In this document: one piece after another, positions 6,210 through 43,185 of the stretch
Layout: each line of letters starts with the position of its first letter
Numbering within the stretch: position 1 is the stretch's first letter
Source of the DNA: Verrucomicrobiia bacterium
GTDB lineage: Bacteria > Verrucomicrobiota > Verrucomicrobiia > Limisphaerales > JAEYXS01
Assembly: GCA_036405135.1 (NCBI GenBank)
Contig: DASWYF010000013.1
Span: 62,001 to 126,000 of the forward strand
Length of the DNA: 64,000 bases
Direction of reading: 5' to 3'
Translations under genes and position numbers: made by a program
Notes under the pieces: model-generated
What the model was told of the DNA's origin: nothing
Databases searched by the model: none
Seen by the model: the letters and a program-made list of their open reading frames with translations, nothing else

Positions 6210-7676
6210 TCACCTGCCTACCGCCTTAAACCCCTTCCTCAAAAGTCCATCCTGATCCATGATCGGCTTCGCCGTCGCCGCCTTGCCCAGCGGACGGCAT
6301 CCCGGTCCGGTATTCCCATCGCCCAGATCCGCACGAGCCAAATCTGCGTACGCCTTGAGTAGTTTCACCGTCTCCTCATTCTTCTCCGCCACGTCTTTCG
6401 ATTCCTCGATATCCTTCTTCAGGTCATAGAGCTTGCCGGTTTTTAGTTCCAACTTCCATTGTCCCGAGCGCACGGCCTCTAGCGTGCCGCCTTCCCGCGA
6501 TCCTGCCCGATAATAAAAATACTTCTCATGACCCTTCGCATCCTTCTTGCCCGTCAGCAATGGAGTGATGTCCTGCCCATCTAATTTGCGATCTGTCGGC
6601 AATTTACCGCCTGCGAGTGCGGCAAATGTTGGCAAGATATCGATCATCCCCGTGATCTCATCCGTGCTCTCCTTCGCGGGAACCGTTCCCGGCCACCACG
6701 CGATAGTGCACGCGCGCATTCCGCCCTCGAACGTGCTCGCCTTGAACCCGCGCAAAGGCGTGTTCTTCCCGCGCGCCGTGCCGCCATTGTCACTCGTGAA
6801 GATCACGAGCGTCTTCGCCTCCAGCTTCAGTTCGCGCAACTTGTCCAATACTTGCCCCACGCTCCAATCCGTCTCCTCTACCCAATCGCTGTAAATCCCG
6901 TTCGGCGATTTCCCCGCGAAATTCTTGCCCGGATAGATCGGGAAATGCACCGAGGAATGCGGCAGGTAGAGGAAGAACGGCTTGTCCTTGTTGCGCTCGA
7001 TGAACTTGATCGATTCGCGCGTGTAACGCTCCACCAGCTCCGTCTGCTCCTGCGCCTTCACGCGGATGACGAGTTCCGAATCCCCGCGGATCAACGGCAG
7101 CGGCGGATGCTTTGGTGCCTTGCGCTTTTTCTCATCAGCCTTGTCCTCAGGAGGCATGTCGCCCAGATTGCTTCGCGCTCCTTCAATCGCCGGGCCCATG
7201 TCGTTGGAGTAGGGGATGCCGTAATAATAATCAAAACCCTGATGCGTCGGCAGCATGCCGCGTTGATCACCCAGATGCCACTTCCCGATGCACGCCGTGG
7301 CGTAACCTTGCTCCTTCAGCAACTCCGCCACGGTGATCTCGCTCGGCGCCAGCCCTTCCGCTTCGCCGGGGAAGAACACGCGATTCACACTCACGCGTTT
7401 GAAGTAAGACCCCGTCATCAACTGCGCCCGCGATGGCGAGCAAACCGGCGCCGCATAGAACGAAGTGAACTTCATTCCCTCCTTCGCCATGCGATCCAAG
7501 TGCGGCGTGCGATTCAACTTGGACCCGAACGGCCCGATATCCGCATAACCCAGATCATCCACATTGATGATGACAAAGTTAGGTTTGGTGGCTTCCGCCG
7601 CGTGAAGCAGTGGACCGGCAGCAAGGCCGATGGTGAGAAGCACGAACCGGCAGGCAAGCAAGAGTGATGCTTTCAT
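6210..7676 (-). CDS. Secreted sulfatase (arylsulfatase family, formylglycine type)
   Basis: A 488-residue protein with a signal peptide ending near LLHAAEA. It has the alkaline-phosphatase-fold sulfatase hallmarks: the metal-binding NVDDLGYADIG segment, then the C-S-P-S-R motif whose Cys79 would be converted to formylglycine, then GKWHLG and FTSDNGG. These enzymes release sulfate from glycans, steroids or lipids in the periplasm or outside. The open frame extends 72 codons further upstream, but that part is the translation of a palindromic repeat (7808-7852), so the ATG at 7676 is chosen. It leads a minus-strand run with the prenyltransferase-repeat and ceramidase-like genes. No sulfatase-maturing enzyme is in the window. 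Confidence 0.9.
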   Translation of the reverse strand: MKASLLLACRFVLLTIGLAAGPLLHAAEATKPNFVIINVDDLGYADIGPFGSKLNRTPHLDRMAKEGMKFTSFYAAPVCSPSRAQLMTGSYFKRVSVNRVFFPGEAEGLAPSEITVAELLKEQGYATACIGKWHLGDQRGMLPTHQGFDYYYGIPYSNDMGPAIEGARSNLGDMPPEDKADEKKRKAPKHPPLPLIRGDSELVIRVKAQEQTELVERYTRESIKFIERNKDKPFFLYLPHSSVHFPIYPGKNFAGKSPNGIYSDWVEETDWSVGQVLDKLRELKLEAKTLVIFTSDNGGTARGKNTPLRGFKASTFEGGMRACTIAWWPGTVPAKESTDEITGMIDILPTFAALAGGKLPTDRKLDGQDITPLLTGKKDAKGHEKYFYYRAGSREGGTLEAVRSGQWKLELKTGKLYDLKKDIEESKDVAEKNEETVKLLKAYADLARADLGDGNTGPGCRPLGKAATAKPIMDQDGLLRKGFKAVGR

Positions 7677-7807
7677 GGGCGTGGCCACATTACAGAGCCG
7701 TTCTGTCCGGCAATCAAGCCGCGAGTTCGTTTCCATGTTTCTGCGTGCGTATGCTGATAATGCTTTCCGGAATGCCAGTGGACTGGGAAAGCAAGACAAC
7801 GCTGAAC

Positions 7808-7852
7808 CTCCCTCTCCCATCGGAGGGGAGAGGGCCGGGGTGAGGGGTGCCC
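7808..7852. repeat. Dispersed palindromic repeat, family A, copy 1
   Basis: A CCCTCTCCC / GGGGAGAGGG inverted repeat followed by CCGGGGTGAGGGGTGCCC. Near-identical copies are at 27509-27551, 41408-41452 and 45024-45065. This copy lies in the 5' region of the sulfatase gene and produces a false N-terminal extension when translated. Confidence 0.85.
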
Positions 7853-7919
7853 GCGTAACCTCAAAGCGTGTCCTATTCTCGTCCGTTTTCATTTTCTACA
7901 CTCTCATCCTAAACCGCCC

Positions 7920-13874: not shown

Positions 13875-13961
13875 AGCACCTTAACGAAAGGATCTTGTCG
13901 TGGCAATCAACGATGACGATTGCAGCCTTGCCTCACACCCTCTGCCCGTCATTATCCCGGC

Positions 13962-15623
13962 ATGAACCTCGTTTGGCGACGGCTGGCCGTATTCCTAGCC
14001 TTGATGTTGTGCAGCTCTGTTTCCGTTCATTCCGCTACGCAGCCCAACATCATCCTCATCCTCGCCGATGACATGGGCTACTCTGATCTCGGCTGTTACG
14101 GCTCCGAGATTAAAACGCCGAACCTCGACAAGCTCGCGGCGAACGGGCTTCGCTTCACCCAGTTCTACAATGGCGCACGCTGCTGTCCCACACGCGCGGC
14201 GTTGCTTACAGGGTTGTATCCACATCAGGCGGGAGTGGGGCACATGCTGCAGGATTTCAAGAAGCCGGGTTACACCAGCGGTTTGAATGACAATAGCGCC
14301 ACGATCGCGGAGCTTCTGCGTGAGTCCGGCTATCGCACCTATCACGTAGGCAAGTGGCATGTGGGCGGCATCGGGGCGAAAGCGGAACCGCGCAATCATC
14401 CCATGAGCCGGGGCTTTGACCGTGCGTATGGTTCAGGCGGTGGCGGCAATTACTTCGCCCTGCAACCGCTCTACATGGATCGTGAAAATATCAAACCGGG
14501 TGACAACTTCTATGCGACCGATGCGTTCAGCTATTGGGGTGTAAGGCTTTTGGACGAACATCAGGCCCGTCATAAGGACAAACCGTTCTTCCTGCATCTT
14601 TGTTACACCGCACCGCATTTTCCGCTGCACGCGAAGCCTGAGGATATCGCGAAATATCGCGGCAAATATCGTGAAGGCTGGGACAAGCTGCGCGAGACAC
14701 GGTTCGCGAAACAGCAGGAGCTGGGAATCATTGACAAGAAAGCAAAACTCTCCCCGCGCGATCCAGTGGCCAAAGCATGGACGGATGTATCTGAGGCGGA
14801 GAAAGACGAATGGGACCTGCGCATGGCCGTGCATGCGGCGATGATCGATTGCATGGATCAAGGCATCGGGCGAGTGATGGAAATGGTGAGGAAGATGGGC
14901 GCGGAGGAGAACACGTTGGTGGTGTTCCTGTCGGACAACGGAGCGAGTGCCGAGGCGCTCGACTCATGGCCCAATCCCGCGCGAGGTCACAAGCCCGGCA
15001 GCGTGACGGGCACGAAAGAATCGCATCGCTGCCTTGAGATCGGCTGGGCGAATGCGGCGAACACGCCTTTCCGCGAGAATAAGATGTGGGTGCATGAGGG
15101 CGGCATCAGCACGCCGTTCATCGCGCATTGGCCTGCTGGTATTACCAAGACGCGTGGCAAGATCACCGGTGAAGTCGGTCATGTCATTGACTTGATGCCG
15201 ACGTTTCTGGAGCTAGCCGGTGGCGAATATCCCACGCGTTATCGCAGTTTTGATTTGAAGCCTTTGGCTGGCACGAGCTTGGTGCCGGTTTTGCAAGGCA
15301 AGCGCGGGAGTGAACGCACGCTGGGATGGGAGCATGAAGGCAATCGCGCGTATCGAATAGGGGATTGGAAACTGGTAGCGACCTTCAAAGGTGATTGGGA
15401 GTTATACGATCTGGGCAAAGATCGCACGGAAGTGAATAATCTTGCGGCGAAGTATCCGAAACGTGTGCAGGAGATGAGCGTCCGTTATCAACAATGGGCG
15501 GATGAAGTGGGCGTGGTGCCTTGGGAACAATTGCCGGGCGCGAATTACCAGCCGACGAAGGGGTATCGGAAGAAATCAGAGCCGCCAGTGGAAGGGGCAG
15601 GTGGCGGGAAGGTAGCTGAGTAA
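13962..15623 (+). CDS. Secreted arylsulfatase
   Basis: A 553-residue sulfatase with a signal peptide (MNLVWRRLAVFLALMLCSS, cleaved near VHSA). The metal-binding LADDMGYSDLGCYG is followed by the active-site C-C-P-T-R, where Cys74 is the predicted formylglycine precursor, then GKWHVGG, LSDNGAS and GEVGHVIDLMPTFLELAG. The overall length and the ARCCPTRAALLTGLYPHQAGVGHM region match the large arylsulfatase A-like group that is greatly expanded in marine and soil PVC bacteria. The ATG at 13962 starts the signal peptide; an upstream in-frame start at 13920 adds only polar residues. It is followed after 49 bases by another sulfatase on the same strand. Confidence 0.92.
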   Translation: MNLVWRRLAVFLALMLCSSVSVHSATQPNIILILADDMGYSDLGCYGSEIKTPNLDKLAANGLRFTQFYNGARCCPTRAALLTGLYPHQAGVGHMLQDFKKPGYTSGLNDNSATIAELLRESGYRTYHVGKWHVGGIGAKAEPRNHPMSRGFDRAYGSGGGGNYFALQPLYMDRENIKPGDNFYATDAFSYWGVRLLDEHQARHKDKPFFLHLCYTAPHFPLHAKPEDIAKYRGKYREGWDKLRETRFAKQQELGIIDKKAKLSPRDPVAKAWTDVSEAEKDEWDLRMAVHAAMIDCMDQGIGRVMEMVRKMGAEENTLVVFLSDNGASAEALDSWPNPARGHKPGSVTGTKESHRCLEIGWANAANTPFRENKMWVHEGGISTPFIAHWPAGITKTRGKITGEVGHVIDLMPTFLELAGGEYPTRYRSFDLKPLAGTSLVPVLQGKRGSERTLGWEHEGNRAYRIGDWKLVATFKGDWELYDLGKDRTEVNNLAAKYPKRVQEMSVRYQQWADEVGVVPWEQLPGANYQPTKGYRKKSEPPVEGAGGGKVAE

Positions 15624-28928: not shown

Positions 28929-28941
28929 CCGCGTAAGAGTT

Positions 28942-28958
28942 CCGCCTTCAGGCGGTTT
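28942..28958 (+). terminator. Weak hairpin after the phospholipase D gene
   Basis: CCGCC-TTCA-GGCGG followed by TTTCC, 14 bases after the stop codon. The stem is only five bases and the T-run is short, so it may be just another short repeat. Confidence 0.35.
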
Positions 28959-30292
28959 CCTATCCCATAAGCCCTATTAGTCCCATCGGACCCATAAGAC
29001 CTATTTTCCCCCGTCCCTTTCTTCATTCTTGGGAGGCCGAACTTCGGCTTCCTAATTCTTCATTCCCCCGAAGCGGCCTTCCCGTCTCGTCTGCTTGATG
29101 CTCCCTCTTCTCGATAGCATCCTGTCCTGCGGCACTCTAGCTACCAGTCTGCACCTCCCGGATCCGACCCTCGCCAGCCACTCCAAAACACCTTCATTTC
29201 CACAAAGGCGGAGACTGTCTGGAAAGCTGGGTTGAGGTCGGCTGCGCCGGATGAATGGGACAGGGCTAGGCGTGGCGAGGGAGCATATCAATAAAAAGAT
29301 ACGTGACCGAGCCACAACAACGCCCTGGCCCATTCAGACCAGCAGACGGCCTCAAGACAGCTTTACAGCCAGTCTCAGGAACTATGTCAAAGAGCAATGA
29401 AACCATCCGATTCCTGTTGATGTATCTGGCCTATGGCTCCTCCTCACAGGGAGGCCAGACTCTAGCGCCGTCCAAGACCCGGCCGGTTCCGCAGTGGCTA
29501 CTGATAGATTCCCCGGGCGGTCATAAAATCCTACACCGCCCGACGTCCACTTCACCCTCCAGCTTACGAGCCCTGATCCAGCACCCGATACACCCACAGA
29601 TCCTGAAACATGGTAGGGCGAGGCTCCCGACGAGCCCTGACTATTTCACACGACTGCCCCACCGAACTTCAGAGCAGAGACTTCGAAGCTAAAAGCGCTT
29701 TTCGCACTTCCCACCTCACACCTCGCCCCTTTCCTGACGGTCCCATAAGGATTGCCCAAACGATTCCATTGAATCATTCAGCGGGGATTTCAGCCTTTCG
29801 TGTCCCTAACTCGAAACTCAAAACTAGGAACCAGAAACTTGGCCTTCGGCCCTTCCTTTACCGACAACGAGTTGTCAGCAATCCCACTATCCATCATACC
29901 AACCACTCAAACCACCGAAATCTGTTATCCCACAGCGACATTTCTCCCAACCTGTTGCGAAAGAGGAAAATTCAACCGATAATTTCTTAATTCCCAGCCT
30001 AAACCACGCCCGCCAAATTTACTAAGTAAACAAATCCGCCCCGTTTTCGCGTAGTTCGCGTGTTTCGCGGTTAATCTGGACCTGAAACATTAAATCTGAA
30101 ACCTGAGACAATTTCTTCATTCGCTTGACCCCATTCGGTTGAAAAATTCCCCCTCCGCGTCCCAGATGCTCAAAACTCGAAACTCAAAACCAGAAACCAG
30201 AAACCTTCTGGCCTCCGGTGCAACCGGCTGAAAACTGAACACTGAAAACTTGAAACTCCCTCCCCGAAGAGGCACCTTCCTTCCCAGCGGAT
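28959..30292. other. 1.3-kb stretch without a supportable gene
   Basis: Short frames on both strands lack family features and codon structure. The left part is full of CCCATAAGACC-like direct repeats near 28966-29008. The right part has tandem text such as ACTCGAAACTCAAAAC and CCAGAAACC (29807-29835 and 30170-30210) and TAGTTCGCG/TTTCGCGGTTAA (30051-30075), also seen near 556-583. CACCTCACACCTCGCCCC near 29715 resembles the repeat inserted in the nitrate reductase gene. I found no tmRNA, RNase P or SRP RNA signature here. It reads as a repeat-rich junk or decayed region next to a tRNA. Confidence 0.6.
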
Positions 30293-30376
30293 GCGCGAGT
30301 GGCGAAATGGCAGACGCGCCAGACTTAGGATCTGGTCCCGTAAGGGGTGAAGGTTCAAGTCCTTTCTCGCGCACCA
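30293..30376 (+). tRNA. tRNA-Leu (TAG)
   Basis: An 84-base class II tRNA: acceptor GCGCGAG/CTCGCGC, anticodon stem CCAGA/TCTGG around CTTAGGA (anticodon TAG), a long variable arm (TCCCGTAAGGGG), T-arm with GGTTCAAGTCC, discriminator A and an encoded CCA. The next gene ends three bases beyond the CCA on the opposite strand. Confidence 0.95.
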
Positions 30377-30378
30377 TT

Positions 30379-33171
30379 TTAGAATCCGTATTTTTCCATA
30401 CGGAGTTTGAATGCTTCCTTGCCTCCTTCTGTTACTGACGTGATTTCCTCTTTGATTGATTCGCTGTCGATTGCGCCGACGGCTTTAACAATACCTTTTG
30501 TCTGGTCACCAGTCTTTACATAGTCACAGCAAACAACCAACTCAGCATCGCCGTTTACTACAAAGTTTGCACTATGGCTCGCGAAAACAAGTTGACGCCG
30601 GCATTTGGCTTTCCAAACAAGTTCCACAATATCCCTGACCATTCGGCTATCAATGTCGTCTTCGGGTTGATCTATTATCAGTGGAGCACCTGTTTGATTG
30701 AGTAAAACTGTTAACAGTGCAGTGGCTTGTTGCCCGGCAGAGGCATCTTTGAAATCTATGTATTCGTTTGTTTTTTTGTTGGAACAGTAATGAAATTTTG
30801 GATTGAACTCGAGTTCGGTTACTGACAGCTCTAGCCATTTTGAAGAGTCGAACATTGAGCCAATTCTGGATTTTTCACTTTCAATGAAGCCGTATTTGTC
30901 GAGTGTGGGCGTATTTGGTAGTGCGGTAGAGGCTTCGTTTGAGTGCTTAGCTAAATGTTCAAGGTCCGTCAGTATGGTGTTCCACTCGGAGAATGGGTCA
31001 GTGGAATTTAGGATGCCTTGACAGGCTCTATCGAGCTTTTCTTCTCGGACAATCATTCCAATGAATGCCTGTTTCAGCTTTTGGGTTAACTTGAATGTGT
31101 CCAAGCCTTTACTAAGGTCTGCTTTGATAAGCCCATCGGAAAGATCGGTAAATTGAGTGCATTGGCTTTTAAGTTCTGCGAGTTTTCTGGTGTGCAATTC
31201 GTCCCAATATTTTCGAAGAGTTACATAAGTTGCTTTGGGGTCTCCTAAGGTTGTTAGAGCGTTTTGTTTTTCGGTTTGCTGTTTTCGCAGGAGAGCAATC
31301 CGCTGCTCTAGCGTTTGGATTTGTTGCAGTTGAAGTTTGTTGTCATTCGCTTTCGTTTTAGTTTCCTCGTACTTTTTAATGAACTCCTCACGTAGATTTT
31401 CCCAGATGCTTACGGATTCGTTTATTTCAACTAGAGATTGCGGACTGAGTAGATTGGACAAGGATGTCACTGCTGATTCTATTTCCAGAAATTTTGCATT
31501 GAACTTCTCTTGGACCTGTCTGATCGCTTCTTTGTTTTCAATGTCTTCGGGAGGGTCGTTTTTCTGTTCTGTTTCATTGAACGAATCTACAAGTAGTTCA
31601 ATATTGCTTTTGGCAATTGCGAGCTTGTTGTGGAGTCCTTCAATTAAGCCTTCTTCGAGGTCGTATTTCGATTTTAAGTTGATCAGTTTTTGATCTTCCT
31701 CAGAAAGTCCCTTAAGACTATTGCGTAAAGCTGTTAGCTGCTCTGAGAGAGAGGTGATTTCGACATTGTTTTTTTGAACTTCTACTTCAATTTCGCTCAT
31801 TCGAATTGAATGCCCGTATGCGGCGCGCATATTCGCTGCTGTATTTCTCAATTCCGAGCGAATGTCGTCGAGTTTCTGCTTTATTGGTAGCTCAACGAAT
31901 CGTTTTAATTCATCGACACGCACTCCCACACTGCTGAGTTGTTTTTGGCTGTAAGCCTGAATCGGAAGCAGGCTGCGGATTTGCTGCTCAGTGGCTGGAC
32001 TGAAATCGCTGCTTCCGATTTGGAGGAAAATTTCGTTTTTCTTCGAATCTCTCCGGACTGCATGGTGTACTCCATTTAGATAGAATCCTACAGTTACTTC
32101 GCCATCGACCTTTTGAAGCGTGTTGTCGATAAGATTTTTTCTCTTGGTTTGAACGACATCAATTTCTTCACTCTCAATAGATTGATCGCATAGTCCCCAT
32201 CGTAGGTACTCAAGGATGGTGGATTTCCCGGTTCCCCTGCCGCCGATAATTGCATTCAGTTGCTGATTTAGATGGAGATCAATTTTTCCAAGGAATTTTG
32301 AGTTGGAAACCTTTAGATATGTTACCCAAATGCTAGGCAGTGCTGGTTCGTTATGGGATAGCCGTGATTGTTTTGCCAGGCATGCTTGCCGCAGTGCCTC
32401 CGCAGTCGGTACTGACCATTTTACATATGTGCTTGGCACTCCTAGTTCAAAATGGTTGCGGTCACGGTTATCGGAAGTTTGGAAGACAGCAAGTGCTTTG
32501 AAGCCATTGTTAATTTGGCGGCCTTCAAAGATGTTTTTATGGCCGGTTTTGGATTTGGCGTAATCTCCATCAATATAACCACCCACACACCTCATTTCCT
32601 GATAGTGCTTGGTGAATCCATCTCGAAAAATTGTTTTGTAGCCTTCAGAAGTGACATTCGGAAGAATCGTGAACTTGCCTTTTAGCCACAGGTGTTGGTT
32701 GAGTGTTTCTTCAAGGTTGTTGAGCCCGGTGATTGAAGTTGGTGACACTGATGTGACGGATGGGAGCTTACTTTTGGAGGGATCAACCTGCGCAATTGTC
32801 AGAACGGTTAAAACGTCGTTTAGTTTGGATTCGTCGAAATGCGCGTCTAAAATAACTATGACTTGGCAGGGAGGAGATGAAAGTGTCAGTTCTACTCCGG
32901 GAAAAACAATGATTTTTTCCTCCTCGGGAAATGGTTGACCATCGGGGGCGATTTCCTCTTTTGCTGCAGTTCGTATGTAAGGGTAGAAAACGAAATCGTG
33001 ATGGTCCGTTATCGCGATTGCATGCAGACCTTTATCTCGACAAGCTTGGATAAGCTCTTTCGCATAGGCTTGTCGTTCTTCTGGTGTTATCGCTTCAGTT
33101 CCAGACCACTGTGAATCTCTTGGCGTGTGAACCTGAAAATCGCATTTATAGAAATGAGCACCTTTGTCCAT
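30379..33171 (-). CDS. PHP-domain/SMC-like AAA ATPase (TrlF-type), candidate defence gene
   Basis: A 930-residue protein with a PHP-type N-terminal domain and an ABC/SMC-like ATPase. PHP motifs are QVHTPRD (residues 13-19, where the first His of the usual HxH is Gln), TDHHD (55-59), PGVE (91-94) and a late TSD. Walker A is GGRGTGKST (310-318), a long coiled coil spans about 430-690, a signature-like DASAGQQATALL precedes Walker B LIIDQPEDD, and SHSANF supplies a switch His. Such proteins resemble RecF/SbcC-like DNA-end ATPases joined to a metal-dependent hydrolase; several relatives sit in defence islands. G+C is about 40%, far below the neighbours, and its 3' end abuts tRNA-Leu, both signs of transfer. 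An anti-phage role is inference. Confidence 0.75.
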   Translation of the reverse strand: MDKGAHFYKCDFQVHTPRDSQWSGTEAITPEERQAYAKELIQACRDKGLHAIAITDHHDFVFYPYIRTAAKEEIAPDGQPFPEEEKIIVFPGVELTLSSPPCQVIVILDAHFDESKLNDVLTVLTIAQVDPSKSKLPSVTSVSPTSITGLNNLEETLNQHLWLKGKFTILPNVTSEGYKTIFRDGFTKHYQEMRCVGGYIDGDYAKSKTGHKNIFEGRQINNGFKALAVFQTSDNRDRNHFELGVPSTYVKWSVPTAEALRQACLAKQSRLSHNEPALPSIWVTYLKVSNSKFLGKIDLHLNQQLNAIIGGRGTGKSTILEYLRWGLCDQSIESEEIDVVQTKRKNLIDNTLQKVDGEVTVGFYLNGVHHAVRRDSKKNEIFLQIGSSDFSPATEQQIRSLLPIQAYSQKQLSSVGVRVDELKRFVELPIKQKLDDIRSELRNTAANMRAAYGHSIRMSEIEVEVQKNNVEITSLSEQLTALRNSLKGLSEEDQKLINLKSKYDLEEGLIEGLHNKLAIAKSNIELLVDSFNETEQKNDPPEDIENKEAIRQVQEKFNAKFLEIESAVTSLSNLLSPQSLVEINESVSIWENLREEFIKKYEETKTKANDNKLQLQQIQTLEQRIALLRKQQTEKQNALTTLGDPKATYVTLRKYWDELHTRKLAELKSQCTQFTDLSDGLIKADLSKGLDTFKLTQKLKQAFIGMIVREEKLDRACQGILNSTDPFSEWNTILTDLEHLAKHSNEASTALPNTPTLDKYGFIESEKSRIGSMFDSSKWLELSVTELEFNPKFHYCSNKKTNEYIDFKDASAGQQATALLTVLLNQTGAPLIIDQPEDDIDSRMVRDIVELVWKAKCRRQLVFASHSANFVVNGDAELVVCCDYVKTGDQTKGIVKAVGAIDSESIKEEITSVTEGGKEAFKLRMEKYGF

Positions 33172-33305
33172 ATCCCTCTTGGAAAGCAGTGGTTAGCTGC
33201 AGTTTGTTCAATCGGGATGATGCACTCAGGGGATTGAGAGTCAAAAGCAATCGACTGTAAGCTGCAAAACGGCATGGTGCTGTCTGAGTTGCATTCCATC
33301 TGTGG

Positions 33306-36300
33306 TTAAAGCCCCAACACCACCTTCACCCGATAAAACCTCCGCTCTCCACTTGCAGGCAAACTCACCGCCACCGCCTGATTATTCCCCACGATATCAA
33401 CGTACCCCGTTACCGCCGTCCACACCGTGGGATTCCCGAACTCCGTCGCATACTCCACCGTATAACGCCGTGTCAGCCCCGCATACGCCACACCTTCCGC
33501 CTTCACCGCGGTGAAACTGAAATTCACCATCCCACCCGCGAGGGCAGGGGACATCCGTTCCGCATCACCCGTCTGCGGATTCGTCCCCAGCACATACTCC
33601 TGCGCGTTTGTGAAACCATCGCCATCTGCATCCCCTGCATCATTATTGCTCGCAGAACCGAAGTTCTCGATCCGCCAGCTCTCCAGCGGACTGAACACCG
33701 TGACATTCACCGTGTTCGTCCCCGATTGCCCCGCGAAGTAAGCTGTTGGCAATCCAGCCAGCTTCGTCACCTCACTCGCGCTGAACGCCGTGTTGAACAT
33801 CGCCAGATCCGCCAGCGGACCTTTCCACCAACGATCCCACATCGCACTGCTTGTGGACGTGCTGACTCCGCCAAAGCGCACCGTCTTGCTATTATCGAAA
33901 CTGAACGCGAACGCATTATCGCTCCCCGCCAACGTCCCATCCACATACAGACTCAGCGTGCCGCTATTTCGCACGATGGCGAAGTGATGCCACACATTCG
34001 CCGCCACGTTCGCCTTCGTGATGCCCACGTCCTGCGTCGCGTTATTGTAGTTACGCAGCTCCAACGTGTTGCCCGTGCCATAATAACCCAACGTCATCGC
34101 GCTGTTCCCGTAACCGCCCGATTCACCCACCTGCACGATGAAATCGATATTCGCCGTGCTCGCCCGTTTGAACCACCCACCGATCGTCCAATCCCCATTC
34201 TTCAAGTCCACCTCCGTCGTCGTCAGCGCCCGCTCCAATCGCGCCGCTCCCGCCGTGCCATTCTCCGTCAGATAAATGCTTTGCCCCGCTTGCGGTGCAA
34301 AGATCGTCGGCACATCGGACGTATAAGCCGCGCTCCCTGTCCCTACGACCGTCACCGTCGCCTCCCGCCCTTGCCCCGTCGTATCCGTGGCATTGCCCGT
34401 TTGGAAATCATAGAGGAACAGCGCGTTCTCTCCGTGCGACTTATCCTTCACCATGTAAGTGAAATTCGCCGGGCCATTGTAACCTGCCGTCGGCGTGAAC
34501 CGCGCCGTGTAACCATCCGCCAGCAGCGTCACCGTGCCATTCTGCGGCGCGCTCACGGCGAAGCGCAATTGTGCCGTCGGCGTCTCCACATCACTCACCA
34601 GCGTGCGCAAGTCCACGTCCACCACCGTGCTCTGGGGAGTTGTAACCGTGGTGCTGATCGCATTGGGCGCATAAGAAACCTCCACATGATGCACCAGACT
34701 CGTGCGGCTCAACCCATTCGCATCCATCGCCACAGCCGTGAGTTGATGTTGCCCGCCCGGAAGGCTCGTCGCCAATTCATAAGGTACACCGTTGTTATCC
34801 GTGCCCAACAAAGTGGCTCCGTTGTAAAACCTCACCTCCGTCACCGCCCCATCCGTCGCGATGGCATTCGCCGTGATAGTTACTGGTCCGGCTTGCGGAT
34901 GATACGCTCCATCTGTTGGGCTCGTGATTTTGACCTCAGGTGGAGTGTGCCCCACTGCCAGAGTGAGGTGAGGTCCATTTGAGGTGAGGCTGTTTTCGCT
35001 CGAGGCGTAAGACACATAACCATCCGCTGTCTGTGTGGTGGCAGAAATCTTGAAAGATATGGGCCCGGTATTGGTTATCGTCTTGCCGAAACCGAAAACT
35101 AGGGTGGCGGCAGAAACCGGTGTCCAGGTCGCCAATGCCGGACCTGTTGCAGCGGGAGCGTTGTTCCAGGTGACCGCTGTTTCCGACCAGCTCGTATCTG
35201 GCACCAGATAAACTCCATGCACTCCAGGCGAACTCGCCTGCAGACAGTAGAGCCCCATCGACAAGCTGAACATGATGCCGCCGACATCGGGTATATTGAA
35301 ACGAACGTAAGCCTCACGGTTAAACCCGGCGCCGCTCTTCTTGATGACAAGATTGGAGGCATTGCCGTAATTCGAATCTTTGTTGGCATCGTTATCGTAT
35401 GTGTAAGTATCCGCCTCCGCGGGGATGGTCACGAGCTGCGGTTCACCACGATAAAACCGAGCCTTGAACGTTTTCCCGTTTGAGCCGTTCACGTTGATCG
35501 TCATGTCGATCGTGTGCGATAGGGGGTCTAGGCTGATGCTCGGATCTGCGCTGATGCATGTGCCGACCTTGGCGATTTGCAGCTTGATGGTTCCGGTATT
35601 CGCCTGCGTAGGGTCACTGACCGCCACGTCGATGAATGCACCGTCTTCGCGCACCAGCACCGAGCACTTTTTGTTCGCTGTGATGCCACCCACCGTGCGG
35701 GTCGTATCCGTCCAGAAATTTGCCGCCGTGATGCCCAGTGTCGTTTCCTGCACGGCTTGCATATTTCCGGTGTTCGTCAACACGATGACCTGCGGATATT
35801 GGGCGTAAGTTTTCGTGTGTCTGGCCGAGCGTCCGGGGAGCAGTACGTATTGGTAGGTTGCGTCTAATGGGTTCGAGCCATGATCTAACGTCATCCGCAG
35901 ATAGTTCCGCGTGATCGGCGTGGTGGAGCCACCATCATCAATATCTGAGATTGCACCCGTCCGCGCCTCCCGTACCGCTCTGATTTCCGTGGCTTGCGGG
36001 AAATAATAACCGATGTCATCGCCCCCGACATGTCCTGCGAGGTGCGCCCAAGCAGTGCCGCCTAGTGTATCAGTCCACCCAAGTGAAGACGGCAGCTTTG
36101 TGTCATTCACCGTGAACGCATTCGCTCCTGTGCTGGAGATCTTGCGATTCTCTACCGTCGTCTCAATTGGCCGCCCATCCGTGCTCGTGATGCCCGCACC
36201 GAGACACACGATCTCATCATCGAACATGAACCACGATTTCTTCCCCGTCAGCGTCACCGCTACGCCCTTGAACTGCATCCCAGCCGCGCCAAATTTATCC

Positions 36301-37838
36301 AGCGTCGCGCCACCCACCCAGTTATGTGGCGAGAGCGTGTTCTGCCCCTGCGCGCGCGGTCCGATGGACGCCGTTTGATGCGGCAGCTTGCTCTTCGTCA
36401 CATCCACCGTCACGCCGGGCAAGCGATACGCATCGATCGTCGCCCAATAATTATCCCCATACTGGAGCAGGTCGGAATTATAGAGAATCGTCATGCCATC
36501 ACCCGTATACCAGCCCTTGAGATTTTCCCCGTTGATCGATTCAAAATTCGCGATCCGGGTAGAACTCATGCTCAACCCGAAACCATAACCCGCCCCCAGA
36601 TGCACCACACGATCCATCTCCGGGAACGTGAAATGCGTGATCAATTCACCACGCCGTACGATATCTCCATCATTCATCAAGGTCTGCGCCATTTTGATCG
36701 TGGGCAGCGGACGGTTGCTCACAAAATCCCGCACCGTATCACTCAACGCCCATTCCTTGATCATGCTCTTCATCCGCGCCGCATCCGCTGCCGGGGCGAA
36801 CTGCGCCACCTGCATGATGGAATCGATCATCGAATGTCCCGTTGCCTGCGCATTCGCTCCAGATCGTCCCGCCTCCCGTCCGCGCACCAGATCCCACGCA
36901 GCTCCGCGATAGATGATCGGCTCGAACGAATCGAAAACCCAGCGATACACATTCTCCTTCAAAGGATCCGTCACTTCCCACGTAGAACCCGCCAGCAGAT
37001 TCATCACCGGTGCAATAGTCCCCAACAGGCTGGCCCCATACCCCGCGGTGTAAGGATGCGTCGCGTGTTGCAGGAAAGAACCATCCGTATAGAAACCATC
37101 CCCGCTCGTCACATACGGAAAAAGTGCGCTGAACGCATCCCGCGCTGCGATCAGTTTCGCTCCATCCTTCACCACCGTTCCGCGTACCGCCACCACGCGG
37201 ATCTTCCACATCCGGTTCGCCCCCGTAAAAGTCCCTGTGCTGCCTCCCGTTGCCTGCGTCGTCGCCGAAGGCGTGAACTTCTCCACCGCCCCCATGTAAT
37301 TGGAAAGCTGGGTGGAACTCAGCTGGTCATAGAGCAATACGGCGATGTCCGTGAGGTGCATCGGCGTGCCGATCTCGAAATCCCACCAGTTATCGTAGAT
37401 GACCTTCGTGGAGTTGTAATAATTGGCATGCATCCAATCCAACGCACTGAGGAGATCGGCGAGCAACGTGGCATTACCTTGGAGCGAGCAACCGGGAGTA
37501 GCATAGGCGAGCGCCATCGAGCGCAGTCGTCCGTAGGAACTGGTGATGTTCGCAGAAACCGTGGAACTAGCCAGATCACTCCACAGATAAGTGCGGGTAG
37601 GGGACTTATCCATGCTCGACCAGTTGGAATTAGCCCCGTTCGCGATGCTCGTCAGCTTCGGCGCGATGATCGGATCCAGTGGATCATAACCCGCTCCCAC
37701 CATCGTATCGAACCACTTCTGCCGCACTGTGTCATACTCATCTGCACGCAGCGTGGCGACGCTCAGCAAAAGCCAGCACAGCACCCCATAGGCACAATAC
37801 GCCCATGGCTTTTGGTACAACTCACGAACAGGGGTCAT
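33306..37838 (-). CDS. Multidomain polysaccharide lyase family 8 protein
   Basis: A 1510-residue secreted enzyme with an N-terminal signal peptide. The first 800 residues form a PL8 lyase (hyaluronate/chondroitin/xanthan type): DGSFLQHATHPYTAGYG matches the catalytic His/Tyr region, and SINGENLKGWYTGDGM matches the substrate cleft, with the beta-sandwich after it. Next come a CBM96/DNRLRE-like domain (TYTYDNDANKDSNYGNAS onward), a bacterial Ig-like domain (PPEVKITSPTDGAYH), a cadherin-like unit, a LamG/concanavalin-type domain and a DADGDGFTNAQEY calcium-binding repeat. The product would be extracellular or surface-bound, cleaving uronic-acid glycosidic bonds by beta-elimination. It follows the LysR gene by 54 bases on the same strand. 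Confidence 0.85.
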   Translation of the reverse strand: MTPVRELYQKPWAYCAYGVLCWLLLSVATLRADEYDTVRQKWFDTMVGAGYDPLDPIIAPKLTSIANGANSNWSSMDKSPTRTYLWSDLASSTVSANITSSYGRLRSMALAYATPGCSLQGNATLLADLLSALDWMHANYYNSTKVIYDNWWDFEIGTPMHLTDIAVLLYDQLSSTQLSNYMGAVEKFTPSATTQATGGSTGTFTGANRMWKIRVVAVRGTVVKDGAKLIAARDAFSALFPYVTSGDGFYTDGSFLQHATHPYTAGYGASLLGTIAPVMNLLAGSTWEVTDPLKENVYRWVFDSFEPIIYRGAAWDLVRGREAGRSGANAQATGHSMIDSIMQVAQFAPAADAARMKSMIKEWALSDTVRDFVSNRPLPTIKMAQTLMNDGDIVRRGELITHFTFPEMDRVVHLGAGYGFGLSMSSTRIANFESINGENLKGWYTGDGMTILYNSDLLQYGDNYWATIDAYRLPGVTVDVTKSKLPHQTASIGPRAQGQNTLSPHNWVGGATLDKFGAAGMQFKGVAVTLTGKKSWFMFDDEIVCLGAGITSTDGRPIETTVENRKISSTGANAFTVNDTKLPSSLGWTDTLGGTAWAHLAGHVGGDDIGYYFPQATEIRAVREARTGAISDIDDGGSTTPITRNYLRMTLDHGSNPLDATYQYVLLPGRSARHTKTYAQYPQVIVLTNTGNMQAVQETTLGITAANFWTDTTRTVGGITANKKCSVLVREDGAFIDVAVSDPTQANTGTIKLQIAKVGTCISADPSISLDPLSHTIDMTINVNGSNGKTFKARFYRGEPQLVTIPAEADTYTYDNDANKDSNYGNASNLVIKKSGAGFNREAYVRFNIPDVGGIMFSLSMGLYCLQASSPGVHGVYLVPDTSWSETAVTWNNAPAATGPALATWTPVSAATLVFGFGKTITNTGPISFKISATTQTADGYVSYASSENSLTSNGPHLTLAVGHTPPEVKITSPTDGAYHPQAGPVTITANAIATDGAVTEVRFYNGATLLGTDNNGVPYELATSLPGGQHQLTAVAMDANGLSRTSLVHHVEVSYAPNAISTTVTTPQSTVVDVDLRTLVSDVETPTAQLRFAVSAPQNGTVTLLADGYTARFTPTAGYNGPANFTYMVKDKSHGENALFLYDFQTGNATDTTGQGREATVTVVGTGSAAYTSDVPTIFAPQAGQSIYLTENGTAGAARLERALTTTEVDLKNGDWTIGGWFKRASTANIDFIVQVGESGGYGNSAMTLGYYGTGNTLELRNYNNATQDVGITKANVAANVWHHFAIVRNSGTLSLYVDGTLAGSDNAFAFSFDNSKTVRFGGVSTSTSSAMWDRWWKGPLADLAMFNTAFSASEVTKLAGLPTAYFAGQSGTNTVNVTVFSPLESWRIENFGSASNNDAGDADGDGFTNAQEYVLGTNPQTGDAERMSPALAGGMVNFSFTAVKAEGVAYAGLTRRYTVEYATEFGNPTVWTAVTGYVDIVGNNQAVAVSLPASGERRFYRVKVVLGL

Positions 37839-41502: not shown

Positions 41503-43185
41503 ATGCCCCTTACCGTCCCCAATGCAACGAAGCCTCTGGCCGCCACCCGTCTGCGCGTCCACGCCACCGCCTTCGTCATCAGCAAAGACGAAGCCGCTCC
41601 GCCCGATGACTCCGTCACCTCGGAGACCTATCCCGATGGCCTCTTCCTCGCCGTCCTCGCCGATGGCATGGGTTCCGCCCGCCACGGTCGTGAAGCCGCA
41701 CAACGCGTCACCAGCGCCTTCACCACCCATTTCGCCAGCCGCCCGCGCGCATGGCCGCTCGCGAAAGTGCTGGAAGAGATCACCCGCCAACTGAACCGCC
41801 TTCTGTATCAAGAAGGCCAGGCGCGCTTCGGACAATCCGAGCTGGGCACTACGATTGTCGCCGCCTTGCTCGATGGCAATCGCCTGCACGTCATCCACGC
41901 GGGTGATTCCCGTTGCTACCTCTTCCGCAAAGGTAAGCTACACCAGATCACCCAAGATCATCGCGATACCAATCCCGGCTGCGAACATCATCTCATCAAA
42001 GCCCTCGGCATGATCGGCGAGATCACCCCGGATTATTCCGTGCATGATCTCGCTAAAGGTGATCTCGTCCTGCTCAGCTCCGATGGTCTCAGTGACGTGT
42101 TGAAGGAAGATGCGCTGACTGAACTTCTTGGCAAACAATCCTCCGCCCGCAGTCTGGCCAGCACCGCCCGCGAACGCGCCACACTCGAGCAACTCGACGA
42201 CATCTCCGCCGTGCTCGTAGAAGTGATGGAAACGGGCGCTTGCTCTGATGCCTCCGAATCCCTCCCCATCGCCGGACAATTAAAAGCCGGTGACCTTGTG
42301 GATGGCTTCACCCTGCGCCGCAGCTTCCGCGAGAGCGACCGCATCTGGCTTGCCTCCCGTGCTGGCAACTCCTACGTCCTTAAATTCGCCCCCGTCGAAG
42401 CCGCGACCAATGAGCCCTTGCAAGCCCAGTTCCTCCGCGAGATATGGCACGCCACGCGATTGCAGGCAGAATACTTTCCGACCGCCTTTCTGCCAGATCC
42501 CTGCACCTATTGTTACTACGCGCAGGAATATCTCCACGCCCCGAACCTCCGGCAGTATCTGAAAGACCATGGTGACTTGGCCGTGGAAGAAGCCGTTCGT
42601 TTGGGCGTCTTCCTGCTGAACGCAGTTCAGTTTCTCGTCCGCCATGATTTCGTTCATGGCGATCTTAAGCCAGAGAACATCGTCGTCATCGGCACCGGCG
42701 CGGAGATGCGTTTCAAACTCATCGACCTCGGCAGCGTCGCCGAAGTCTTCAGCTTCAACCGTCGCGCTGGCACTCCTAGTTATTTAGCTCCTGAACGCTT
42801 TCACGGAGCCGCCCTCAGTGAGACCACGGAGATCTTTGCGATCGGTGTCACATTATATGAAGCACTGACCGGCCGTTTACCCTTCGGCGAGGTGGAGCCG
42901 TTTCAAACTCCCGTGTTCCGCCAGGTGCGTCCTCCCTCTACCACCAACCATCATATCCCGCAGTGGTTGGACATGATATTGTTACATTCGCTCGCGATAG
43001 AGCCGAAAGACCGGTATCTCAATTACAGCGAGATGCTGTTTGATCTGGAACACCCTGAAAAAGTGCGTCCTTTCCATCAAGCCGACACGCCGCTGATCCA
43101 GCGCGACCCGTTGAAGTTCTATAAATACGGGTTCTATTTCCTTCTGATTACAGTGATTATCCTGCTTTTTATGCTTCTCAAGTAG
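41503..43185 (+). CDS. Fused PP2C phosphatase and Ser/Thr kinase, tail-anchored
   Basis: A 560-residue fusion. Residues about 15-240 are a PP2C phosphatase (LADGMGSARHG, GQSELGTTIVAALL, HAGDSRCYLF, LSSDGLSDVL). Residues about 255-520 are a protein kinase with YVLKFAP (beta-3 Lys), HGDLKPENIVV catalytic loop (HGD in place of HRD), LIDLGS in place of DFG and GTPSYLAPE. The C-terminus has one transmembrane helix and almost nothing after it. Similar fusions sit beside nitrate transporters in Pseudomonas and relatives, so a link to nitrogen supply is likely, but the target protein is unknown. Confidence 0.88.
   Translation: MPLTVPNATKPLAATRLRVHATAFVISKDEAAPPDDSVTSETYPDGLFLAVLADGMGSARHGREAAQRVTSAFTTHFASRPRAWPLAKVLEEITRQLNRLLYQEGQARFGQSELGTTIVAALLDGNRLHVIHAGDSRCYLFRKGKLHQITQDHRDTNPGCEHHLIKALGMIGEITPDYSVHDLAKGDLVLLSSDGLSDVLKEDALTELLGKQSSARSLASTARERATLEQLDDISAVLVEVMETGACSDASESLPIAGQLKAGDLVDGFTLRRSFRESDRIWLASRAGNSYVLKFAPVEAATNEPLQAQFLREIWHATRLQAEYFPTAFLPDPCTYCYYAQEYLHAPNLRQYLKDHGDLAVEEAVRLGVFLLNAVQFLVRHDFVHGDLKPENIVVIGTGAEMRFKLIDLGSVAEVFSFNRRAGTPSYLAPERFHGAALSETTEIFAIGVTLYEALTGRLPFGEVEPFQTPVFRQVRPPSTTNHHIPQWLDMILLHSLAIEPKDRYLNYSEMLFDLEHPEKVRPFHQADTPLIQRDPLKFYKYGFYFLLITVIILLFMLLK

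Follow-up and report, generated by a model that had tools for sequence, protein, structure and literature searches.

Among the described systems closest to the locus analysed here, the anti-phage protein Ppl possesses a PHP domain that is described as a single-stranded DNA 3′–5′ exonuclease triggered by free 3′ ends together with NTP depletion (reviewed in PMC12904381). The Rad50-like protein RloC is switched by DNA breaks, and PrrC is switched by a restriction enzyme (PMC3874168). Nine metal ligands, in the order H H D/H H E H C/H D/N H, are described for PHP domains; the PHP domain of E. coli Pol III has lost five of them, including a His to Arg replacement at position 9, binds no metal and leaves proofreading to a separate exonuclease (PMC3666897). 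Our literature search found no experimental paper on the TrlF family, and searches on the combination of PHP, SMC and restriction returned no description of it.

The window, i.e. the whole stretch of 64,000 nucleotides of a Verrucomicrobiia bacterium that was analysed, contains one TrlF gene. We lean towards reading its product as an SMC/Rad50-like defence ATPase that senses DNA ends and is linked to restriction; its PHP domain has been recoded, and the gene was acquired by transfer. The TrlF family itself is already named; what is new is the recoded PHP site of the clade, along with the clade's links to restriction and to tRNAs.

The gene and its tRNA-Leu slot

The features of the locus, in window coordinates, are as follows:

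30293..30376 (+): tRNA-Leu with anticodon TAG, bounding the variable slot on the left by its 3′ end
30377..33310 (no strand): variable slot, filled differently in the three congeneric genomes compared, delimited by homology to G001 and G002
30379..33171 (−): TrlF-family PHP–SMC-like ATPase gene, 930 aa (open reading frame; NCBIfam NF045780; full-length relatives 40–67% identical)
30382..30801 (−): residues 791–930, ATPase C-lobe with the ABC signature SAGQQ (811), Walker B IIDQPEDD (832) and H866
31141..31929 (−): residues 415–677, long coiled coil without a Zn-hook CxxC
31933..32331 (−): residues 281–413, ATPase N-lobe with Walker A GGRGTGKS at 310–317
32347..33171 (−): residues 1–275, PHP-fold domain with a variant metal site (AlphaFold2 fold, structural matches, residue signature)
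33306..37838 (−): PL8 polysaccharide lyase gene, conserved in both congeners, bounding the slot on the right by its 3′ end

An earlier sequence-only reading had described a 930-residue ATPase gene at tRNA-Leu, and the intact open reading frame, which starts with ATG, bears this out. The gene and the tRNA are convergent. The stop codon is followed by two bases (TT) and then by the CCA end of the tRNA, so that the adjacency claimed earlier stands with a gap of two bases instead of three. The contrast in base composition holds as well, the earlier figures of about 40% and 58% G+C being replaced by 43.5% for the gene and 56.6% for the rest of the window; the GC3 of the gene is 42%, and its flanking genes have 57.3–57.5% G+C. 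Scans for promoters and terminators gave results no richer than those in shuffled sequences. The earlier suggestion of a possible remnant is not supported, and a decayed gene is ruled out by the full length and by the collinearity with homologues that are 65–67% identical.

Alignment of the window to the congeneric genomes G001 and G002 stops at the 3′ end of the tRNA and picks up again at about position 33311, immediately within the 3′ terminus of the lyase gene. In both congeners the end of this gene likewise adjoins tRNA-Leu(TAG), and TrlF is missing; the slot is occupied by an ORF of 111 aa in G001 and by an ORF of 109 aa in G002, both unrelated and without Pfam matches (the two congener ORFs are L019:913-1248 and L018:725-1054). 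Since the slot content differs in the congeners, and homology is interrupted from the tRNA 3′ terminus up to the neighbouring gene, the slot is variable between species. The window gene was absent from all 39 related genomes searched, three of which gave partial matches (32–43% identity) that covered only query residues 582–930 or about 808–929. The distribution of TrlF in the phylum is patchy (24 of 387 genomes at E ≤ 1e-30).

Good support for the acquisition of the gene by horizontal transfer, as a cargo of one gene in a tRNA hot spot, comes from the G+C contrast, from its absence from congeners that hold unrelated ORFs in the slot and from the tree of 64 proteins, in which it groups with homologues from Patescibacteria and from a viral contig with 100% support; the hot-spot part of this conclusion is also based on the tRNAs near other homologues, most of which have their 3′ ends directed at the gene. 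The sequence-only reading had seen here the layout of a transferred single gene and had proposed the comparison of tRNA-Leu(TAG) in relatives, which now agrees with it. Vertical inheritance is ruled out by the absence of the gene in both congeners and by the tree; the one named verrucomicrobial homologue in the tree (L107) is distant from it. As in tRNA-associated islands, the insert abuts the tRNA 3′ end and is missing in relatives. The integrase and direct att repeats of such islands were not found at this slot, in agreement with what had been noticed earlier: no tyrosine integrase is encoded within the window, the four of this genome being on other contigs, and at the far boundary of the slot att-like repeats of the tRNA 3′ end do not rise above shuffled sequence. 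If the reading as a defence gene is correct, the locus would document a one-gene cargo of the defence type that occupies a variable slot at a tRNA and carries no integrase.

At 76 other loci of the clade, the window locus being left out of the count, the 43 kb inspected within 300 bp of the gene contain five tRNAs and the 548 kb beyond 1 kb contain seven (ratio 9.1, p = 0.001), and 14 of the 15 tRNAs in all flanks turn their 3′ end toward the TrlF gene (p = 0.0005); these p values are optimistic because the counted loci are related to one another. The 1.5-kb flanks of TrlF loci outside the clade in this phylum contain no tRNA; a tRNA linkage of TrlF in general is therefore rejected, and the association is demonstrated for the clade of the window gene alone. 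Across the order, the 3′ neighbours of tRNA-Leu(TAG) vary, and the lowest 3′ G+C is found in the window's genome; this survey neither strengthens nor weakens the congener result.

On the other side of the tRNA, a stretch of about 1.3 kb (28929–30290) has no convincing gene and shows homology to the congeners only in the bases that adjoin the tRNA; a phospholipase-D-type gene lies beyond it. Elsewhere in the window, positions 41503–43185 encode a single chain in which a PP2C phosphatase is fused to a protein kinase domain. The two sulfatases (6210–7892 and 13920–15623), together with the PL8 lyase, which carries CBM96 and laminin-G domains, fit a degrader of glycosaminoglycan-type polysaccharides.

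Family, predicted fold and recoded PHP site

The window protein is a member of the named TrlF family and a distant relative of the anti-phage Ppl. It matches NCBIfam NF045780 (TrlF family AAA-like ATPase) with 490 bits, the cut-off being 350, over the entire profile (1–944 of 944). The match to Ppl (NF042955) reaches 169 bits, far below the cut-off of 1000 and so outside Ppl proper, with the best-matching stretch in the C-lobe (residues 800–926); the PADLOC Ppl model gives 131 bits. The Pfam PHP match (22.3 bits) is under its cut-off of 26.4. A scan of one genome per species yielded 80 relatives, and the clade of the window gene is widespread, with members in Bacteria and Archaea. The nearest relatives, 65–67% identical, come from Patescibacteria and unnamed bins, with a 66% identical copy on a viral contig. 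Full-length relatives at 40–44% identity are carried by plasmids of Hymenobacter, Sphingobium, Agrobacterium and Novosphingobium. The TrlF proteins of enterobacterial and Vibrio plasmids are just 24% identical to the window protein, whose identity to 13 TrlF sequences drawn from its own phylum is 16–22%. The closest mobile context to the window gene is a viral-labelled contig (L139:59-10018) on which two DNA methylase-like genes, some other genes, TrlF, a gene resembling PD-(D/E)XK and one resembling a tyrosine recombinase follow one another.

The earlier assignment of a PHP-type domain joined to an SMC-like ATPase with a long coiled coil is corroborated by the predicted folds. The model of the full protein has a mean pLDDT of 87, and its residues 280–920 match the heads of SMC, Rad50 and RecF (Z 19.9, rmsd 2.9, 279 residues). 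As these heads dominated the fold search with the whole model, the PHP part (residues 1–280) was folded and searched separately. It reached a pLDDT of 95 in AlphaFold2 and matched EndoQ, with a VIA Z score of 16.4 (225 residues, rmsd 4.1), PsfC (15.2), the PHP phosphoesterase TM0559 (14.8), RNase AM (12.8) and Pol III alpha (11.6); a Foldseek match to the PHP domain of PolC (E 5e-7) also identifies the PHP fold. The motifs pointed out in the sequence-only reading are in place, namely the Walker A around Lys316 (K316 is its lysine) and the QVH and TDHH of the PHP domain (DFQVHT at 11–16, TDHH at 55–58).

The QVH, taken at first for an individual oddity, turned out to be the rule in the clade. 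The residues of the window protein equivalent to PHP ligands are Q13, H15, H57, E94, Q103, N172, D234 and R236, and the corresponding signature QHHEQNDR occurs in 61 of 71 clade sequences, the remainder differing at one or two sites, versus HHHEHHDH or HHHEHHDK in 9 of the 13 other TrlF proteins of the phylum. H15, H57, E94 and D234 are invariant in the clade. Q103 and R236 are present in 71/71 sequences, and both lie outside the search pattern; the pattern did include DFQ[VI]HTP, so the conservation of Q13 is partly due to selection of the sequences, and Q13 is also present in all five aligned plasmid relatives that were found without it. Positions 1, 6, 7 and 9 of the nine ligands thus correspond to Q13, Q103, N172 and R236, and position 3 is not placed with certainty, the mapping being made by motif alignment with other TrlF proteins and not by superposition of side chains. 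The nine-ligand set of metal-dependent PHP domains is incomplete in the window protein. As judged from this alignment, at least four of the nine metal ligands are replaced in a fixed way in the clade, to an extent comparable to the variant PHP domain of E. coli Pol III.

The mean conservation of the PHP part (0.60) nearly equals the value for the ATPase N-lobe (0.62) and greatly exceeds the one for the coiled coil (0.39), which indicates that the PHP domain is under constraint and not decaying. The domain is probably not a standard three-metal nuclease, and the residue pattern makes a non-catalytic role or a changed chemistry more likely than standard nuclease activity; the retained H15, H57, E94 and D234 could still hold metal. 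A TrlF homologue at L030:1501-4131 shows another form of degeneration of the PHP motif (ALQVNP, with N in place of H15), which suggests repeated loss of the PHP site.

Restriction-modification neighbourhoods

On two plasmids, type III-like Mod and Res genes lie directly upstream of the TrlF gene, in one case with an 8-bp gap, and elsewhere in the clade it adjoins the gene of an Mrr-nSTAND3 protein or, further off, that of a CAP12-type TIR protein. A Mod-Res pair is present, for example, at the Sphingobium plasmid locus (L055). The 42 immediate upstream genes on the same strand as a clade TrlF gene include matches to the Pfam families ResIII (8), type I S subunit (4), Eco57I (3), N6_Mtase (3), GmrSD (2) and Eco29kI, Mrr and MmeI (one each), some proteins matching more than one family. 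An N-methylase motif was present in 35 of 412 neighbour ORFs (29 of 78 loci) versus none of 113 control ORFs, the control set being small and the motif simple.

That the restriction link belongs to the QVH clade alone is rejected, since it is shared by TrlF members with an intact PHP site, in 7 of 17 loci (HsdM-HsdS beside TrlF, MmeI, Eco57I, Mod), and therefore leaves the recoding unexplained. In at least four of these 17 loci the intact-PHP TrlF gene is followed, 3–75 bp downstream, by the gene of a protein with Schlafen AlbA_2 and HATPase_c_4 domains (L176:3726-4982, L182:8586-9773, L185:4717-5982 and L186:4826-5998), and the pair possibly represents a two-gene module.

The window holds no restriction partner of the TrlF gene, and six matches to two methylase families are found elsewhere in its genome. 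HMM searches of the 39 window ORFs against PADLOC revealed no defence island; the matches consist of the Ppl-type match of the TrlF gene and of generic kinase, AAA and sigma-54 activator matches.

Possible mechanism and likeness to known systems

A defence role of the window protein is likely on the grounds of its family membership, the restriction-modification neighbourhoods and the kinship with Ppl. The same neighbourhoods, by analogy with the precedents of Ppl and of RloC and PrrC, suggest an ATPase that responds to DNA ends in connection with restriction. The protein may act as an anti-phage or anti-plasmid factor that would dimerise through its ATPase heads, respond to the ATP state and recognise free or processed DNA ends originating from restriction, phage nucleases or linear phage genomes. 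Because its site is recoded, the PHP domain is likelier to bind DNA or a nucleotide, or to serve a partner nuclease, in many cases a restriction enzyme, as its scaffold, than to work as a standard three-metal exonuclease. In the window's genome the protein may function alone or with restriction systems encoded elsewhere. Tentatively, one may go further and regard the PHP site of the clade as a fixed non-canonical pocket and the whole protein as a non-nucleolytic, ATP-driven sensor or clamp of DNA ends that recruits or licenses the co-encoded restriction enzyme across several restriction types. If true, this would make a coherent clade within the little-studied TrlF family, with a presumed catalytic domain recoded yet strongly constrained, would tie the family to several restriction-modification types, and would raise the question of whether restriction passes DNA ends to an SMC-like partner.

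It is somewhat doubtful that the PHP domain is instead an active 3′–5′ exonuclease with an altered one- or two-metal site, degrading phage DNA from free ends as Ppl might. The relation of the C-terminal ATPase to Ppl, the activation of the latter by free 3′ ends and NTP depletion (PMC12904381), the four invariant ligand residues and a PHP conservation near that of the N-lobe would all suit such an enzyme, which nevertheless has to accommodate Q, Q, N and R at four ligand positions in most or all of the 71 homologues, with the same Arg at position 9 as in the metal-free PHP domain of E. coli Pol III (PMC3666897). We consider unlikely an abortive-infection switch like PrrC or RloC, in which the ATPase would sense DNA breaks or an inactivated restriction enzyme and make the recoded PHP domain attack RNA or nucleotides with toxic effect. 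The Zn-hook CxxC is found in the coiled coil of none of the 64 homologues, nor anywhere in the window protein, and the Pfam matches of the latter include no anticodon-nuclease domain, despite the combination of a Rad50-like ATPase with an effector domain, the frequent restriction neighbours, the known switching of RloC by DNA breaks and of PrrC by a restriction enzyme (PMC3874168), and the example of RNase AM, which shows that PHP domains can be RNases. Membership in RloC proper is ruled out by the missing Zn hook.

A housekeeping repair gene or a neutral passenger, that is an SMC-like repair ATPase placed at a tRNA by chance, would agree with the RecF/Rad50/SMC fold and with the automatic annotation of one homologue, which points to double-strand break repair; it is highly improbable in view of the patchy distribution, the homologues carried on plasmids, the absence from both congeners and the restriction neighbourhoods.

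Compared to known systems, the window protein shares with the TrlF family (NF045780) the N-terminal PHP domain, the split ATPase, the coiled coil and the C-terminal EGG..AF..R, and differs by its low identity to the sampled members and by QHHEQNDR in place of HHHEHHDH/K. With Ppl it has in common the PHP domain, a related ATPase C-lobe, where the similarity is best, and the organisation as a single-gene system, but its score is only a fraction of the Ppl cut-off. Like RloC and PrrC, the proteins of the clade have an ABC/Rad50-like ATPase encoded beside restriction-modification genes; their effector, however, is a PHP-fold domain, and the Zn-hook CxxC is missing. The head and coiled coil resemble those of SMC, Rad50 and RecF, whereas the coiled coil is shorter, the protein has a fused PHP domain and no hinge was recognised. 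Finally, E. coli Pol III alpha likewise retains the PHP fold with several metal ligands lost and position 9 changed from His to Arg; the other replaced positions differ in part, and the domain is joined to a polymerase there and to an SMC-like ATPase here.
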